Source of the DNA: a virus
Length of the DNA: 64,000 nucleotides
Reading direction: 5' to 3' (one strand)
IMG/VR virus record: IMGVR_UViG_3300020165_000007
Coordinates: 186,001-250,000 of that record
Positions 9,260 to 44,835 of this stretch are shown piece by piece. A model generated the notes under the pieces. It had not been told where the DNA came from, did no database searches, and saw only the letters and a list, made by a program, of their open reading frames with translations. The position numbers and the translations under genes were made by a program. Every line of letters begins with the position of its first letter. Within the stretch, counting starts at the first letter, position 1.

Positions 9260-9649
9260 ATGGAACAAGATTATTTCAAGACTCTCCCCTCAGGTTACCT
9301 TGAGTATATTGATAAGTTGATGAACAACTTGGTTGTGGGTAATCACATGAGAGCTAATTGGAGTACTGAATGGGAAATACGTTTGGATGATAAGAATGGT
9401 AATCCCGTATTTTCTATCTACGGTGATGTAGGTAGTGACTCCCCCATATATAGAATCATTTATTCCCCTCCAGCTTTCTTATTTAATATGGTTCCCATGG
9501 GGGGTGAAGGTCATCAGTTAGAATTCATGACTCAACTATATGAGAAGTATAATATTGAAGAGTTTGTTAATAACTTCTTTGAAAAGAGGAATGAAGATAT
9601 AGATATCATTGGTCACCATAGGGGGTTTGTCAAGAGGTCCGTCTTTTAA
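9260..9649 (+). CDS. hypothetical protein, paralogue A
   Basis: 129 residues. It shares with the protein at 10455-10856 an LPSGYLEYIDK-like start, an FLFNMVPM core and a conserved Arg-x-x-Asp-Ile-Asp near the end, so the two are diverged paralogues on opposite strands. It is rich in aromatic residues and looks like a small mixed alpha/beta protein. No known domain. It is flanked on both sides by non-coding DNA with repeated G-rich boxes. Confidence 0.7.
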   Translation: MEQDYFKTLPSGYLEYIDKLMNNLVVGNHMRANWSTEWEIRLDDKNGNPVFSIYGDVGSDSPIYRIIYSPPAFLFNMVPMGGEGHQLEFMTQLYEKYNIEEFVNNFFEKRNEDIDIIGHHRGFVKRSVF

Positions 9650-10454: not shown

Positions 10455-10856
10455 TTAATAGTTAAGGGCTGCCCTTACTACAGGAGTCTTAAATGGTAGG
10501 TCTATATCTGCGTTCTGTCTTTCGTAGACATCATCAATAGGTTTCATAAAATGTTTTAAGAATATCTGTGTAGTAAAGACTGTTTGTTGTTCCTTACTCA
10601 TGGGTACCATATGGAATAGAAATATTTTGGAACCGTAGAATACAAAATACGTTTCTTGACTAACATTTCCCTGAACACCGAAGACCAAATCATTACCATG
10701 GACTATTTGACAATCAAAAGAATCATCCCATGTGGGTATCTCATTAACCTTTACCTCACATTCACTAACCATTTTATCTATATATTCTAAATAAGATGGT
10801 GGGAGAACAGTTAATGGTTCAAAATCATACTCACTTCTACCTAACCAATTACCCAT
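10455..10856 (-). CDS. hypothetical protein, paralogue B
   Basis: 133 residues, with LPPSYLEYIDK near the N-terminus, FLFHMVPM in the core and a RQNADIDL motif towards the C-terminus, all shared with the plus-strand gene at 9260. It has a longer N-terminal lead (MGNWLGRSEYDF). The pair flanks about 800 bases of non-coding DNA. No known function. Confidence 0.7.
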   Translation of the reverse strand: MGNWLGRSEYDFEPLTVLPPSYLEYIDKMVSECEVKVNEIPTWDDSFDCQIVHGNDLVFGVQGNVSQETYFVFYGSKIFLFHMVPMSKEQQTVFTTQIFLKHFMKPIDDVYERQNADIDLPFKTPVVRAALNY

Positions 10857-11809: not shown

Positions 11810-11835
11810 GTGGCTGGTTTAAAATCCCCTACCCC
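11810..11835 (+). repeat. GTGGCT...CCCCTACCCC box, copy 2
   Basis: Same unit as at 10404 and 13019, followed by a run of seven T residues; it lies between divergent genes. Confidence 0.65.
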
Positions 11836-11906: not shown

Positions 11907-12482
11907 ATGATTTTTACTGAGTTATCACACGCACATATCACCTTTGTAATAGGTTTACCAGGTAGTGGTAAAAGTTACCTATTAAATTACCTAAAAGAAA
12001 ACCCTTTTATCGAACCTGTCGTTTATGATGATTGGTTAATAGTATACGAAAATGATTGTGGTAATGAAAATTTTAATTGTGACAGTAGATATCCTGAATT
12101 AATAGAAAACTTGAATAATAAGATACCTTGTATTATTTCTTCTATTAAGTTTTTGGAGCCTGAATTTTTAAATAGTTCCATAACCACATTAATTGAAGAA
12201 ATTAATGATTTAAAAATAGAATATTTATACTTTGATAATGACATAGAATCATGTAAGTTTAATGTGAAATGTAGAGATATTGAGTTGGGTGGTTATTGGA
12301 AACCTAATAATGAAGGAATTTTATGGTATTATGGTACTATATATAATAATAAACCTTTATATCTATCTGAGTTATCTAATATTGAGAATCTGTCATCCAC
12401 TTATGAAATTCCTACAAAATATACTCCGATAAAGATTGAACGTAATAAGAATATAACGAAATTACCTTTTGGATATGAATAA
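11907..12482 (+). CDS. P-loop kinase-like protein
   Basis: 191 residues. A Walker A motif GLPGSGKSY is at about residues 15-23, followed by a hydrophobic beta strand and a YDDWL acidic segment that may be a Walker B-like site. This fits small phage nucleoside, nucleotide or polynucleotide kinases, but no substrate motif is recognised. The stop overlaps the start of the next gene by eight bases, so the two are co-translated. Confidence 0.7.
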   Translation: MIFTELSHAHITFVIGLPGSGKSYLLNYLKENPFIEPVVYDDWLIVYENDCGNENFNCDSRYPELIENLNNKIPCIISSIKFLEPEFLNSSITTLIEEINDLKIEYLYFDNDIESCKFNVKCRDIELGGYWKPNNEGILWYYGTIYNNKPLYLSELSNIENLSSTYEIPTKYTPIKIERNKNITKLPFGYE

Positions 12483-12846
12483 AATAAAATCTCTAACTTT
12501 ATTAACTTTTCTTTTAATTTGTAATCTATCTTATTCCCAATATTGGTTGGATAGTTTAGATATAAAACCTATTTATGTCCCTAACGCGATTACCTTAGAT
12601 AATGATAACATTAATGATGGGTGGAGAGCTGAAAGTTGTGTAGAGTGGGATGATTATGAGGTTATGATATTTAACTGTTGGGGTGAATGTATTTGGTATA
12701 GTAAAGATATAGAGGAGTGGTGGATTGGTGATAAGGTTAAGAGTGGTACCCACTTTTCAAAAGACGGGTTATATACATATAAAATACAGGCTCGTAAAGG
12801 TTTTGAAACCACGGTTAAGGAAGGAGTAATTTATGTAATAAGATAA
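12475..12846 (+). CDS. secreted protein made almost only of a T9SS type-B-like sorting domain
   Basis: 123 residues from the ATG at 12475. A signal peptide (about 1-18, ending SYSQ) leads straight into a CHU_C/gliding-motility C-terminal-like domain: YVPNAITLDNDNINDGW (family PNAFxPxxDGxND), YEVMIFNCWGECIWYS (family IFNRWGxxIF), then GLYTYKI and a closing GVIYVIR. In Bacteroidota this domain normally ends a much larger secreted protein and routes it through the type IX secretion system. Here almost nothing precedes it. The canonical Arg of FNRWG is Cys, and the first Gly of the DG pair is changed. Possible decoy, adhesin fragment or virion part. Confidence 0.8.
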   Translation: MNKIKSLTLLTFLLICNLSYSQYWLDSLDIKPIYVPNAITLDNDNINDGWRAESCVEWDDYEVMIFNCWGECIWYSKDIEEWWIGDKVKSGTHFSKDGLYTYKIQARKGFETTVKEGVIYVIR

Positions 12847-13016
12847 TGGATTTATACGAAACAATACAAGACTCATTTACATTATCTTTAATAGTATGTT
12901 CCTCTTCGATTTCACTAGCAGCAGTTGTCTTATTAATGGTGTGGTTATTTGTTAGAAATAAAGATGAATATTACAAAGACGGTGTAAAAGTAGAGTTATT
13001 TGAGGATTCTCATTAA
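12846..13016 (+). CDS. small single-pass membrane protein
   Basis: 56 residues. The ATG overlaps the TAA of the sorting-domain gene (TAATG). A transmembrane helix spans about residues 13-35, followed by RNKDEYYKDGVKVE. It resembles the 56-residue protein at 10978 in size and layout. Third gene of the apparent operon with the P-loop kinase and sorting-domain protein. Confidence 0.65.
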   Translation: MDLYETIQDSFTLSLIVCSSSISLAAVVLLMVWLFVRNKDEYYKDGVKVELFEDSH

Positions 13017-13018
13017 TC

Positions 13019-13044
13019 GTGGCTGGTTCAAATTCCCCTACCCC
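13019..13044 (+). repeat. GTGGCT...CCCCTACCCC box, copy 3
   Basis: Third copy of the unit, followed by a T-run and then the TATTTAT box of the gene at 13075. Confidence 0.65.
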
Positions 13045-17103: not shown

Positions 17104-17307
17104 ATGATTATCACCTCTAACTATGAATTAATTTGTTTATATCTACTTGTTGGTACGATTATTGGTTTCTTAATGGAAAAGATGTTTCGTTGGGTTGATG
17201 AAGACGTTTCAGGTATTGAGCGTTTTTGGTTAGTAACACTTTGGCCTCTTATGATATTAATTTTTATATACTACTTATTAGTAGGAATATTTGATTCAAA
17301 TGATTAA
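17104..17307 (+). CDS. two-helix membrane protein
   Basis: 67 residues with helices at about 8-25 and 41-62, separated by an acidic loop (EKMFRWVDEDVSGIERF). The end overlaps the exported protein gene by eight bases. A small inner-membrane role is likely; nothing more can be said. Confidence 0.65.
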   Translation: MIITSNYELICLYLLVGTIIGFLMEKMFRWVDEDVSGIERFWLVTLWPLMILIFIYYLLVGIFDSND

Positions 17308-18058
17308 ATTTTATACAACTATATTATTATTATTCTCTCCATTACTTTTGTTAAGTCAGAGTGAAAGAGATGAAAAGATAAGGAAGAGAAGTGAACGTAA
17401 CGCTCCTACAACTAATTATGTGGAGTCTACACCTGTGTTTGTACCAACTCCTGTACAATCACCTGTTTTCTATCCTAATAATTATTATTCCTCTTGGAAT
17501 CCGTATGTACCTTACAGAACAAGAAATGATAATGGTATTTTTAATAGACGTAACTCAAATAGTCAAACTGAAAGAAATTCAAAACCTCTTAAAGTAAATT
17601 TAGGGTTTACTTTTAGTCCTAACAAACCATCGTCAGTTGGTTTATATGGAACTATAGGTCGTGAAACATTTATTTATTTATCATATGAAGGTAGTAGTAA
17701 GTCTGAATATGAGCACTACTATAATATCACGTTTGAAGAAGTGATGAGCTGGGGAGATGAACAAATAGACACTTTTGAGGAGTATAGTTCTTTCTCTATC
17801 GGTGTTGGTGGTAAAGTATTTAATTCATTATCCCATTTTGCAGGTATAAATCTAAGTACAAAAAAAACCGATTTAGTATTCTATGATGAGTTTTCAGTTC
17901 TTTCTTCAAATGGAGAATATAGTATCACAGATAAGGTTGAAGAGGACTTTAATCTTATGTATGGTTTACTATATAACTATGAGAAGGTTACTTTCGGTTC
18001 TTCTGTGTATTTTTTAGGAGACACTCGTTTTAATTTAAGTATTGGTTTTAACTTTTAA
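17300..18058 (+). CDS. exported outer-membrane-type beta-barrel protein
   Basis: 252 residues from the ATG at 17300. A signal peptide ends near LLLSQ (about residue 19). A basic, Pro/Tyr/Asn-rich linker (about 20-90) leads into alternating hydrophobic strands with Gly-rich turns, ending in a typical C-terminal FNLSIGFNF. The final aromatic residue and strand pattern fit small outer-membrane barrels. It converges with the DHFR gene. Possible surface remodelling protein; no specific family recognised. Confidence 0.65.
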   Translation: MIKFYTTILLLFSPLLLLSQSERDEKIRKRSERNAPTTNYVESTPVFVPTPVQSPVFYPNNYYSSWNPYVPYRTRNDNGIFNRRNSNSQTERNSKPLKVNLGFTFSPNKPSSVGLYGTIGRETFIYLSYEGSSKSEYEHYYNITFEEVMSWGDEQIDTFEEYSSFSIGVGGKVFNSLSHFAGINLSTKKTDLVFYDEFSVLSSNGEYSITDKVEEDFNLMYGLLYNYEKVTFGSSVYFLGDTRFNLSIGFNF

Positions 18059-18804: not shown

Positions 18805-19812
18805 TTATATCTCATAAGGTGACTCACTAAAGGTTACTTCTTTCAAAGTTGGACATTCTTTAACTAAGTGTTGTATGATAAACCCTTTAAATAACCTTTT
18901 ATCATTGAAGGTTAATAAGTTTCCATTTTCTTTTAGTTTAAAGGTCTTCACTTTCTCTAGTACGTCAATCTTATTCATAATTAGTTTATTAACACCGTTA
19001 ATCTTAATTCCTTTTTTTAAATCGTCTAAATCTAACCATCCAATTTGTCTAGGTCTACCTGTGGTTGCACCAAACTCATTACCAACTTGCCTAATTAAAT
19101 CAAAGGTTCTTGATGGTTCTTCAAATTTTTTATTACCAACATAAGTTCTATAGGCTTTAGCGATTCCATGTACATCCCTTACGGTTTGATATGGTATTCC
19201 GTTTTGTAATGCGCCGGCAACTGTACAATGAGATGAGGTCACGTATGGGTAATCTCCCCAATCTATATCCAACTCAAACCCTTGAGCACCCTCAAAAAGT
19301 ATCTTAACCTCATCTTCTCCATGTAGTTCATCAAAAATATCAACCACATAATCAAATATCTCTTCACAATCCTCTGCTCGTAATCCTGTTCTGTTATACT
19401 TTTCTCTGTATGTAGGTCCGTTACCTGTTTTAGTTGTACCTATCTTTATATCTTTAGAGTCTTCTTCCACATACTCATCTTTAGTTATGTGAACTCTTCT
19501 ATCTATTAGTAGATTTTCTCTTACCTTGAATCCTCCTTTTTCTAATGTCCTTATCTCTTCTTCAAGTTTTGATGGGTTTACTATACATCCAGGTCCAATT
19601 ATAGACTTAATACCATATAAGACCCCAACAGGTATATAGTGAGTCACAAATTTAGTACCGTCATGGTAAATAGTATGTCCTGCATTTCCACCTCCATTAT
19701 ATCTTATTATGTGTGTATATTCATCTTTTGTTGAAGCCAATGCATGGGCTACTTTTCCTTTTCCTGTGTCACCGGCTTGTAAATCGACGATGATGTCTGT
19801 GTATTTAATCAT
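18805..19812 (-). CDS. purA: compact adenylosuccinate synthetase
   Basis: 335 residues, about 100 shorter than cellular PurA. The N-terminal loop reads DLQAGDTGKGK: the DLQxGxTGKG frame resembles phage PurZ, but the catalytic Asp of PurA (Asp15 here) is kept, whereas PurZ of the diaminopurine pathway has Ser there. GGNAGHT, IGTTKTGNGP, NRTGLR, FEGAQG...YPYVTSS and GNEFGATTGRPR are all present. It should join IMP and aspartate using GTP. No MazZ or DatZ neighbour is visible. First gene of a run with the HAD phosphatase and DHFR. Confidence 0.85.
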   Translation of the reverse strand: MIKYTDIIVDLQAGDTGKGKVAHALASTKDEYTHIIRYNGGGNAGHTIYHDGTKFVTHYIPVGVLYGIKSIIGPGCIVNPSKLEEEIRTLEKGGFKVRENLLIDRRVHITKDEYVEEDSKDIKIGTTKTGNGPTYREKYNRTGLRAEDCEEIFDYVVDIFDELHGEDEVKILFEGAQGFELDIDWGDYPYVTSSHCTVAGALQNGIPYQTVRDVHGIAKAYRTYVGNKKFEEPSRTFDLIRQVGNEFGATTGRPRQIGWLDLDDLKKGIKINGVNKLIMNKIDVLEKVKTFKLKENGNLLTFNDKRLFKGFIIQHLVKECPTLKEVTFSESPYEI

Positions 19813-31001: not shown

Positions 31002-32060
31002 TTACTCTTGAGTCATAATATACTTCTTACCATTATAGATATATAAACTACCAAATGGAAGGTCTAATAAATTATCGATTCTCTGACCCATAACATTATA
31101 ATAGTTATTATCTAGTGGTCGTTGAGTATTTTGAATCTCACCTACACTGTTAGTAGTGTTGTCTAACAAGACCGCATCAATTGCATGTACTACACCATTT
31201 TGAGCTTCTAAATCAGCTAAGACGACTGTAGCAGTGCCGTTAATTGTTACTGTTTCACCGACACCGACTGTCAAAGTACCACCACCAACTGTGGTCGCTT
31301 CCAGTCCATCATATAAATCAGTACTCATAACAGTAGTACCTAATACGTGATACAAAAGAATGTCAGTCAAATTAGGAAGAACTAAAAGGTCAGTAACCTC
31401 AACACCCAACGTAGTTGCCAATGCGACGAACGCATCGTCAGTCGGTGCGAATACTGTAAAGGTACCTTCACCTTCTAAAGTACTTTGTAGACCTCCGGCA
31501 ATAACAGCTGCTTCGAGGTAGTTATGGACATCACTTCCTTCAATCCAGTCCCATACTGTTGCCACTGCAGGTGTACCCGGTGGAAAAACAACCGCATCGA
31601 TAACGTGGACTACACCATTGTCAGTAATAAGGTCTGCCACAGTTACTGAAGCTACACCATTTATTGTAATAGTCATACCATCTGATTGTATGTACATTGG
31701 TTCTTCAGGGAGTAAAGTGCCTAACATAGAATTAATTGACGGTGGAAGAAGCACCTCTCCTAAATATACTTCCGGAAGTACGTGGTATAAAAGAATATCA
31801 GTAAGATTAGGTAGTGCAAGTAAATCTTCTACCTCAACATTCAATTCATATGCTAACGCAATAAATGCATCATCAGTTGGTGCAAATACGGTAAAAGTGC
31901 CCGATGTGTCACTTAATGCATCGACAAGACCAGCAGATACAACAGCGGCTTCCAACAATGTATGGTCTTCACTATTAACGATTACATCTACTACTGTAGA
32001 TTGAGAAAAACTAATTAGGGATGTTAAGGCCAACCCAAAGGCCATTAGTACTTTTTTCAT
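31002..32060 (-). CDS. secreted two-domain fasciclin protein with T9SS-like tail
   Basis: 352 residues. Signal peptide (about 1-19, ending SFSQ), then two fasciclin/FAS1 domains (about 25-160 and 165-300), each with a TVFAPTDDAF motif, a LLYHVL motif and a GVVHVIDAV/GVVHAIDAV end. The last 35 residues (YYNVMGQRIDN...LYIYNGKKYI) resemble the type-A sorting tail of Bacteroidota T9SS cargo. FAS1 proteins act in adhesion. A host-like surface adhesin in a phage is unusual. Single-gene unit with its own terminator. Confidence 0.9.
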   Translation of the reverse strand: MKKVLMAFGLALTSLISFSQSTVVDVIVNSEDHTLLEAAVVSAGLVDALSDTSGTFTVFAPTDDAFIALAYELNVEVEDLLALPNLTDILLYHVLPEVYLGEVLLPPSINSMLGTLLPEEPMYIQSDGMTITINGVASVTVADLITDNGVVHVIDAVVFPPGTPAVATVWDWIEGSDVHNYLEAAVIAGGLQSTLEGEGTFTVFAPTDDAFVALATTLGVEVTDLLVLPNLTDILLYHVLGTTVMSTDLYDGLEATTVGGGTLTVGVGETVTINGTATVVLADLEAQNGVVHAIDAVLLDNTTNSVGEIQNTQRPLDNNYYNVMGQRIDNLLDLPFGSLYIYNGKKYIMTQE

Positions 32061-42081: not shown

Positions 42082-44835
42082 TTAGAAGTTATATCTTAAA
42101 GATGCATTCCAAGTTCTACCAAATCCAAACCACACTGAGTTACGTGTGTCAATACCGTTCCACGTATCTGATGTTTCAGATGCGTGAATATTAGTGTTTG
42201 ACTCCGCAATGTATGTAGTGTCGAATAAGTTATTTACGTTAACTCTAAACGTTGCATTGTTACCTAACAAGTCAAAACGAGTGGTAACACCCAAATCAAC
42301 TAAATTGTATGACGGTAACTTCAACGCCCCTTGGTTATCGGGTGTGAAGAAGTCAGAACCTGTGATTGAGTAGTCAGCGTAAAGTCCGTCAACATATCTC
42401 ATACCTAAGTCTACATTCACACCTCTAGTTACTCTGTAGTCAACACCTAAGTTTCCAACAACTTGTGCTGCGTCACCAACTTTAGCCCCTTCAGTATAAA
42501 GAACTCCTGTACCAATCTCTTCTTGATTCTCATCAAACAAGGTGGTTTCAAAATCCTTTGTATACTTCCAATCTCCCAATGATAACATACCTGTAAGTTT
42601 TAGGTTGTTAGTAGGTCTATATGTAGACTCTAACTCGATACCATTGTGTTGAACGTCAATATCTCTAAACTGTGCAAATCCATCGACACCTTGAGCATTA
42701 GTCAATGAAAGTGCTCTAAATCTATTACCCCATGTTGTTGCATATGCATTAACATTAACAGTAAGCTCGTCACCTAAGTATCCGTAACCTAACTCAAATG
42801 AAGTAATTTCTTCATTTTGTAAGTCGTCATTAATGTCATTACCATAACTTGGGAATACCGCTGAGAAGTTTGGTTGACGTGAGATGAATCCCGCGTTAGC
42901 AAAAACATTAGACTTTTCATCGATATTATAGTTAGCACCACCTTTAATGTATCCACCACCTAAATTAGCCGTTTCTGAAATTGGATTACCTGGTTGGTCA
43001 AAGTAATCTTCTCTTTGGAATGATTGGTTCGATAACCCCGCTTGTACAACCGCGTTTATTCTTCCATCATCATTATATTCAATAAGTCCGTTTACACCGG
43101 CCCATCCAACGTTTCCTACATTATAGTAGTCAATTTTTGGACCGTTAAGACCTGTGTTATTAAACGGACTAGCGTTTACAGTTGTGTTAACAAACTGACC
43201 TACACTATTATCATTACCTGTTGAGTAGTATGCGTCAAAACCCATTAGGTTATTTACTGTACGATAGTGATAACCTTTGTACTTTCTGAGGTCAATACCT
43301 ACAGAAGCCCTAATCTTGTCTTTATCGTACTCTAAATTAGAGATTGCACCTACCCAGTCGTGTGAGTTCATAGACGCTCTACGAATCATCCCACTTCTAT
43401 TAACACCACCTTCATCATATCCATTTGAACCGATGAGTTGTCCGAAAAAAGGACTGTCCATTAAGGTTGAGTCAGGAATTGTTCCGTCAGCATCAATACC
43501 ATAAGTCTGTGCCCCTGATTGGTTATCAGCGACAATAGCGTCAAAATCAATTGTACCATCATCGTTACGAAATTGTGTTGTACTGTCTTCATACATGAAT
43601 TCATACAAATCCTTTCTATAAGGATGGACATCGTAGTTTCTACCACGAGGACCTGTTCCTCCACCTCGACCAGCAGAACCATAGACTGAAGTATTCAATG
43701 TTAAATCTTCGTTGATGTCCCAATCCCAGTTAAAGGTTGCAAGTGGTTTGTTATAAAAGTTTCTTCTCATAGAGAACTCTTCCCCATTTAAAGTACCTCC
43801 GTTTGTGTTCCAACGAGCGTTGATACCATCGTCATTCTGTTCACCAAATGTTTGAAAGTCTCTAATAGAAACCCAAACGTCTCTTTGGTGGTGCCATTGA
43901 CCCGCACCTAAAATAGATAGGTTCAATGCGTGTTTTGAACCTTCAGGTTGGTAACCTACAGCTCCGAAGTATGTCCAACCTTCACCACTGGTGTTGTCGA
44001 CATATCCATTACCTGCCCATCTACTCATTAAGAACGATGACGCCCATCCATTCTCATTTTTACCGGTATTGTAGTTAACACTTGTCTTAGTGTAACCATC
44101 ATTACCAATAGTTTCAGATACTGAACCACCTTGTTCTTTCTCCGCCGCTTTAGTAGAAATAGAAACGGTACCACCAACAGATGGAACCGCAAGACGAGTA
44201 GCACCCAATCCTCTCTGGATTTGAATACCTGAAGCAACGTCAGTAAGACCTTGCCAATTAGACCAATATACCCATCCATTTTCCATATCATTAACAGGTT
44301 GACCGTTAATTAGGAATGATGTGTTACGTTGGTCGAAACCTCTAAGAGATATTCTTGAGTCACCATAACCACCACCTTGTTTCGTAGCATAGACACCAGG
44401 TGTTCTATTCATGATTTCAGGGAATTCTTGGTTTCCGACTTTCAAAGCAATCTCTGACGGACCAATGGTTGATACCGCAACTGGTGTTTCTCTCACTTTC
44501 GCAAAGTCAACAACGTTAACGATTACGGATGCCTCATCCAAACCCAACGCAGTAGCGGTTAATGATATGGTACCCATATCTTTTAGTGCCGGTGTAGTTA
44601 TTGTTTCATACCCGATAAAACGTACAACTAGGTTTCCTGTGGCCTCACTGTTGAGAGTGAATTCACCTGATACATTAGTTGATGTTCCTCGTGTGTTACC
44701 TTCAAGATAGACATTCGCTCCGATGAGCTCATTACCTGTCTTAGAGTCAACAACTTTACCTGTAATTTGGGAGAATAGACTCGTAGTTGAGACCATCATT
44801 ACTCCTAAGATAAACAATCGATTAATTAATTTCAT
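42082..44835 (-). CDS. TonB-dependent outer-membrane receptor
   Basis: 917 residues, apparently complete. Signal peptide (about 1-22, ending LFSQ), a carboxypeptidase-like regulatory domain (about 23-100, GKVVDSKTGNELIGANVYL), a plug (about 115-230, with RGFDQRNTSFLINGQPVND) and a large barrel with aromatic girdles ending SLRYNF. The typical substrate class of such receptors is siderophores, B12, peptides or sugars; none can be assigned. Its presence in a phage-like contig is striking: it could feed the infected cell, alter the surface, or replace a receptor. It is a single-gene unit with its own terminator. Confidence 0.95.
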   Translation of the reverse strand: MKLINRLFILGVMMVSTTSLFSQITGKVVDSKTGNELIGANVYLEGNTRGTSTNVSGEFTLNSEATGNLVVRFIGYETITTPALKDMGTISLTATALGLDEASVIVNVVDFAKVRETPVAVSTIGPSEIALKVGNQEFPEIMNRTPGVYATKQGGGYGDSRISLRGFDQRNTSFLINGQPVNDMENGWVYWSNWQGLTDVASGIQIQRGLGATRLAVPSVGGTVSISTKAAEKEQGGSVSETIGNDGYTKTSVNYNTGKNENGWASSFLMSRWAGNGYVDNTSGEGWTYFGAVGYQPEGSKHALNLSILGAGQWHHQRDVWVSIRDFQTFGEQNDDGINARWNTNGGTLNGEEFSMRRNFYNKPLATFNWDWDINEDLTLNTSVYGSAGRGGGTGPRGRNYDVHPYRKDLYEFMYEDSTTQFRNDDGTIDFDAIVADNQSGAQTYGIDADGTIPDSTLMDSPFFGQLIGSNGYDEGGVNRSGMIRRASMNSHDWVGAISNLEYDKDKIRASVGIDLRKYKGYHYRTVNNLMGFDAYYSTGNDNSVGQFVNTTVNASPFNNTGLNGPKIDYYNVGNVGWAGVNGLIEYNDDGRINAVVQAGLSNQSFQREDYFDQPGNPISETANLGGGYIKGGANYNIDEKSNVFANAGFISRQPNFSAVFPSYGNDINDDLQNEEITSFELGYGYLGDELTVNVNAYATTWGNRFRALSLTNAQGVDGFAQFRDIDVQHNGIELESTYRPTNNLKLTGMLSLGDWKYTKDFETTLFDENQEEIGTGVLYTEGAKVGDAAQVVGNLGVDYRVTRGVNVDLGMRYVDGLYADYSITGSDFFTPDNQGALKLPSYNLVDLGVTTRFDLLGNNATFRVNVNNLFDTTYIAESNTNIHASETSDTWNGIDTRNSVWFGFGRTWNASLRYNF

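Follow-up and report, generated by a model that had tools for sequence, protein, structure and literature searches.

A cargo-less type B sorting-domain protein encoded by a giant phage with genes for an adhesin of type B and for a PorP/SprF shuttle

Results

Genomic context of the locus

The window analysed here, a stretch of 64,000 nucleotides, corresponds to bases 186001-250000 of a virus record of 270,383 bases, which encodes a large terminase subunit, a major head protein, a tail tube and a baseplate wedge, and is therefore from a jumbo-sized tailed phage, probably one that infects Bacteroidota bacteria. Near the start of the window, a small gene encoding a type B C-terminal domain (CTD) of the type IX secretion system (T9SS), the CHU_C domain, lies in a group of three genes with the following features (window coordinates):

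11907..12482, plus strand: gene lying upstream, 191-aa product with a weak match to P-loop ATPases; 8-base overlap with the CHU_C gene; absent at this place in the related contig L035
12475..12846, plus strand: cargo-less type B CTD (CHU_C) gene, 123 aa; ATG at 12475, TAA at 12844-12846; PF13585 E 4.8e-14; ortholog at L035:5407-5772
12475..12537, plus strand: predicted signal peptide, residues 1-21, cleavage between SYS and Q; from sequence inspection, with a modelled helix at residues 4-26
12574..12837, plus strand: CHU_C domain, residues 34-121; Pfam model 2-86/86; beta fold; best Foldseek match in the PDB 8glk_D
12667..12684, plus strand: IFNCWG, residues 65-70, the FNRWG motif with Arg replaced by Cys; YNKWG in the ortholog
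12846..13016, plus strand: gene lying downstream, 56-aa product with a single hydrophobic segment; the CHU_C stop codon runs into its ATG; retained in L035

The three-gene group is flanked by a 24-base element, GGCTGGTTYAAATYCCCCTACCCC, with a T run behind it, at window 11812-11835 and 13021-13044 (chance expectation 0), and a partial copy of this element lies at window 10413. The search for promoters and terminators around the CHU_C gene returned no more than chance, and the upstream RNA fold at this gene had a z of -0.09.

The products of the phage include a TonB-dependent receptor, a fasciclin-domain protein, an M43 metalloprotease, a CAP protein and a secreted-type nuclease, so the phage has many envelope or secreted proteins. 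The TonB-dependent receptor-like protein (917 aa; window 42082-44835, minus strand) has Plug, barrel and CarboxypepD_reg domains, and the product of window 31002-32060 (minus strand) has two fasciclin domains and a C-terminus that resembles, by eye, a type A T9SS tail. The type A tails on the metalloprotease and fasciclin genes are by-eye look-alikes without a Pfam or NCBIfam match, and are not claimed here. Other genes of the window encode a protein of 255 aa (17291-18058) that carries a signal peptide, is barrel-like in sequence, has no Pfam match and is 98% identical in L035, as against 63% for the nearby CHU_C protein; an adenylosuccinate synthetase-like protein (18805-19812, minus strand; phrog_1211 '2-aminooxy adenylosuccinate synthetase', E 5e-70); and two products similar by eye (LP.YLEYIDK; 9260-9649 and 10455-10856), of which L035 has two such adjoining genes.

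A CHU_C domain without cargo

The open reading frame at 12475-12846 is intact, and its 123-aa product reads MNKIKSLTLLTFLLICNLSYS up to the predicted signal peptide cleavage and QYWLDSLDIKPIYVPNAITLDNDNINDGW... thereafter. Read by eye, hydrophobic residues 4-21 followed by SYS and Q fit a Bacteroidota signal peptide, and the Gln behind the cleavage site agrees with the Bacteroidetes Q-rule (PMC5837995). The mature protein would comprise about 102 aa; because only about 12 residues then precede the CHU_C domain, the protein has no cargo, and the initial annotation was right in describing it as little beyond a signal peptide and CHU_C.

The domain occupies the extreme C-terminus (residues 34-121 of 123), behind the signal peptide predicted by inspection. 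Two profiles had been named as a check on the domain, and they divided: Pfam CHU_C (PF13585) matched with E 4.8e-14 and 52.7 bits over model positions 2-86 of 86, above its curated cut-off of 27 bits, and the stricter NCBI model TIGR04131 (Bac_Flav_CTERM) gave E 2.3e-5 and 24.5 bits, under its cut-off of 35 bits. The CHU_C score, together with the terminase, head and tail genes of the record, bears out the identification of a phage gene for a T9SS type B sorting domain that stands alone. Against PHROGs, the sole match of the protein had E 0.2 and function unknown, and no structural-protein profile matched.

Motif residues P36, N37, N47, N67, W69, G70, W83, G85, Y100 and G117 are kept, and F39, P41, R68 and D84 (motifs PNxFxP, NRWG and WDG) are replaced in both this protein and its ortholog. 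Both orthologs deviate at positions 39, 41 and 68, none of which varies among the 21 CHU_C tails of other phage proteins. For 39 and 68, this constancy is partly built in by the patterns with which the tails were collected (the NRWG region and the PN.FT start). Both also deviate at position 84, which is Asp in 71% of the 21 tails and never Ile. The exchange of Arg for Cys in FNRWG, reported initially, is present (FNCWG); the Arg is lost in both orthologs, with Lys in the other (YNKWG), and the argument that the Cys makes the protein block fails for that reason. The Cys as blocking residue is thus ruled out, and C55 is also replaced there, by Met.

Predicted fold

The AlphaFold2 model (23-row alignment; pLDDT 79, pTM 0.64) has a confident strand core (pLDDT >90). 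Structure prediction had also been named as a check, and its outcome agrees with a sorting domain: the first of all PDB matches found by Foldseek was 8glk_D (E 1.8e-3, target TM 0.63; no match under E 0.001), a T9SS translocon with NucA substrate bound, and PorZ and PorU were also among the PDB fold matches. The modelled fold thus resembles solved T9SS sorting tails. By sequence, the PDB held a single strong relative, the C-terminal end of GhpA, the Aureispira grappling hook protein (E 1e-11). The best fold matches in BFVD include phage proteins annotated 'gliding motility-associated C-terminal domain'; those of the uncultured phages A0A6J5NJX2, A0A6J5L8Z9 and A0A7S9STS8 have the same fold as the cargo-less protein, but their annotation is automatic and, at 187-406 aa, they are not bare.

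In sum, the protein is like the T9SS type B CTDs (PF13585; TIGR04131) in its Pfam score over cut-off, its full C-terminal domain, its predicted signal peptide and its matching beta fold, and unlike them in being phage-encoded and without cargo, in its changes at 39, 41 and 68, and in its TIGR04131 score below cut-off.

Ortholog and selection

The ortholog (L035:5407-5772; 63% aa identity) lies on one related contig, IMGVR_UViG_3300025892_000032, flanked by the same neighbours, with the ATPase gene missing at that place. The DNA differences between the two genes fall on codon positions 1/2/3 as 32/29/72 (P 2e-6 against equal spread), a spread that marks constraint on the protein, which, as judged from this pair of sequences, is under purifying selection. 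Their synonymous sites are saturated while neighbouring genes have dS of 0.04-0.8, which suggests that the place of the CHU_C gene may have been exchanged by recombination. An exact-peptide search among viral contigs returned no close relatives of the cargo-less protein.

An adhesin and a shuttle in the same phage

Two further genes of the phage bear on type B secretion, both outside the window:

G000:137649-140645 (= L016:3149-6145): adhesin-like protein, 998 aa; TIGR04131 45.6 bits
G000:147458-148447 (= L016:12958-13947), minus strand: PorP/SprF shuttle; PF11751 and TIGR03519

In the adhesin, a signal sequence is followed by repeats rich in cysteine (GCTD..NYN..A..DDGSC) and by a CHU_C tail of canonical form. 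The shuttle matched PF11751 with E 4e-45 and 154.9 bits (cut-off 22.3) and TIGR03519 with 179.6 bits (cut-off 90.55), and both genes are retained on four more contigs of the clade (G001, G002, G003 and G028). The C-terminal Cys-X-Cys, which bonds to GldK in gliding-type SprF, was looked for in the phage shuttles and not found; they have one Cys near the end (PSCSF, PQCTY), and the G028 shuttle has two with another spacing (PPCTYPPSCTFQ). In the relative L019, the first 200 aa of the shuttle are near-identical and the remainder is divergent, as if by recombination.

A PorP/SprF gene was seen in none of 24 other CHU_C-bearing viral contigs, 18 further contigs and the huge phages LR745206 and LR756502, many of the contigs being fragments; those behind L038, L047, L054 and L056 belong to the clade by the cargo-less mini protein or the adhesin, and here the missing shuttle may reflect incompleteness only. 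Phages without a shuttle would rely on those of the host. An exact-peptide search for shuttle relatives in genome contigs returned none.

Of the phage giants compared, the adhesins of its own clade match the cargo-less protein best, with tails 34-35% identical to it; the tree does not resolve the position of this protein and gives it a long branch. As in SprB/SprF of Flavobacterium johnsoniae, the phage pairs an adhesin of type B with a PorP/SprF shuttle that has a short Cys-bearing tail; unlike there, ~7 kb separate the adhesin and shuttle genes, which lie on opposite strands, a single Cys (PSCSF) stands in the shuttle tail instead of the Cys-X-Cys of SprF, and there is a second, cargo-less substrate. 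In PG1035/PorP/PorE of Porphyromonas gingivalis, a type B protein is likewise held on a PorP-like barrel, as the phage protein would be, but PG1035 carries a cargo part.

Distribution in phages and bacteria

The scan of viral contigs found 196 loci encoding CHU_C relatives, of which 80 were kept, 71 with a closed 5' end. Among the latter, 16 have ORFs of <=220 codons, most of which encode ~185 aa with CHU_C preceded by a single extra domain. Only 1/49 closed CHU_C ORFs in the bacterial scan, sized by match coordinates, was shorter than 260 aa; the excess of short viral ORFs (Fisher P 0.001; dereplicated 0.0006) is indicative, the two scans having used different query alignments. The ~185-aa proteins (signal peptide, extra domain, CHU_C) are found at L058, L060, L061, L063, L064, L073, L076, L080, L094 and L107; they retain the motifs, and one of them, searched against PHROGs, gave no match.

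Bare proteins of signal peptide and CHU_C also occur once each in the huge phages LR745206 (107 aa) and LR756502 (116 aa), beside several giants. The former lacks the DGDG loop and the latter has YNRNS in place of YNRWG, while the giants of the same genomes are unaltered (small numbers). In the poorly resolved tree, the bare phage proteins are not gathered in a single group, and that of LR756502 clusters with the giant tail from its own genome (support 99/81), which suggests more than one origin. INPHARED phage records gave no match beyond the two huge metagenomic ones.

Seven bacterial genomes have 19-66 CHU_C places each, and bare proteins were found at L189 (142 aa), L229 (136 aa), L230 (137 aa) and L231 (112 aa); at L229:2799-4147, in a Fluviicola genome, the gene for the bare protein overlaps a PorP/SprF gene (PF11751 E 4.6e-47). 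They share with the phage protein the plan of signal peptide and CHU_C, but are chromosomal, have mostly intact motifs and are not closely kin to it by sequence. Bare CHU_C as a phage-only invention is thereby ruled out, and the bare domain beside a shuttle gene in bacteria means that bareness by itself is no proof of blocking. The statement that CHU_C usually forms the final 80-100 residues of very large proteins agrees with the single short ORF in 49 and has to be softened by these bare bacterial examples.

Discussion

Type B substrates leave SprA on their cognate PorP/SprF shuttle and remain bound to it (PMC9143113, PMC12618676, PMC12635249). The shuttles are limiting and of low abundance, overproduced tails being unsecreted without extra shuttle, and each of five CTD motifs (A-E) is required for secretion, which mutations in the SprB motifs abolished; moreover, efficient type B secretion is reported to need 150-235 aa (PMC12618676). 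Since motifs A-E are needed and such lengths are reported, it is plausible that a bare, motif-altered domain is a shuttle ligand secreted poorly or not at all; by the same length requirement, the cargo-less protein may go wholly unexported.

In this context, we tentatively propose, at somewhat short of an even chance, that the cargo-less protein blocks or caps a PorP/SprF shuttle and so alters which type B adhesins are displayed. The phage probably alters the surface display of the infected cell. The protein would be produced during infection and, given its signal peptide, exported via Sec to the periplasm, where its CHU_C fold would be recognised by a PorP/SprF shuttle, either the phage's (G000:147458-148447) or the host's. 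With shuttles in short supply and each retaining the substrate it carries, the protein would take up shuttle and translocon places, and different type B adhesins would reach the surface; it might remain bound and block, or be exported and cap the shuttle. The expected gain would be fewer host adhesins, arrested gliding and rival phages kept off, with the phage adhesin and shuttle as replacement, and superinfection exclusion or gliding arrest might be the purpose. Indeed, sprA, gldK, gldM, gldN or sprE mutants of F. columnare are phage-resistant (PMC9233685), and for this reason a phage that lowers T9SS adhesin display could exclude rivals.

The initial annotation had proposed that the protein could jam or decoy the host's T9SS. 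Limiting shuttles, the five required motifs (PMC12618676) and the altered invariant positions lend this indirect support, but a general block is unlikely, since the phage has its own adhesin and shuttle and appears to need T9SS; an effect at the shuttle step is favoured. Against the proposed action on a shuttle, harm to the shuttle could also harm the phage's own adhesin, and the sequence comparisons, with a tail only about 34% identical to that of the phage adhesin and TIGR04131 below cut-off, speak for caution over a binding that is inferred.

The main rival, which we consider somewhat unlikely, is that of a small surface protein of the ordinary kind, which T9SS would secrete whole and which would be anchored on a shuttle, with the bare domain itself as the product (a cap or a receptor-masking coat) and no blocking. 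Bare CHU_C proteins 112-142 aa long exist in bacteria, one of them in overlap with a PorP/SprF gene of its own, P. gingivalis has a non-essential type B protein that is PorP-anchored (PMC9143113), and many viral loci encode the ~185-aa proteins with retained motifs; yet positions 39, 41 and 68, invariant in the 21 phage tails, are changed in both orthologs, as is 84, mutations in the SprB motifs stop secretion (PMC12618676), and the cargo-less protein lacks the extra stretch reported to aid it. A role in the assembly or quality control of the phage adhesin, in which the protein would bind the phage shuttle ahead of the adhesin or stabilise it, fits a shared genome and a tail nearest to the clade adhesin tails among those compared, but the genes are ~58 kb apart and adhesin and shuttle occur on contigs (fragments) where the mini protein was not found, which leaves this reading improbable.

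Equally slim is the prospect of a relic, the decaying tail of a once-large adhesin: the altered motif positions, the TIGR04131 score and the long branch would suit decay, and against it stand the signal peptide joined directly to the domain in both orthologs, the third-position excess (72 vs 32 and 29) with an intact frame at 63% aa identity, and the bare proteins of like build in further huge phages. Phage tails often contain beta-sandwich domains and the gene sits in a phage genome, but a virion part, either tail fibre or decoration, is highly improbable given the predicted Sec signal peptide, the sorting-tail fold and the distance to the tail genes found; the tail-fibre role suggested at the outset is unsupported, the best fold match being a T9SS substrate tail.

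Returning to the proposed action on a shuttle, its widest form would join adhesin, dedicated shuttle and dummy substrate: some giant phages of Bacteroidota would seize type IX display at the shuttle step, so that host adhesins are displaced, gliding adhesins and phage receptors are lost and a phage surface is shown. We regard this full scenario as quite unlikely.

The family, fold and pathway are already known, and such phage proteins are annotated automatically in public databases; in the papers searched, none was found on phage-encoded T9SS substrates or shuttles, nor on phage genes acting on the type IX or gliding pathway. In flavobacteria, phage sensitivity is tied to type IX secretion and gliding (PMC9233685), and a phage-borne adhesin, shuttle and cargo-less substrate would be a new route of host-surface remodelling. 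Furthermore, separating recognition from secretion in type B signals is a current question (PMC12618676), for which a phage that brings along an adhesin of type B, a shuttle and a cargo-less substrate would be a natural tool.
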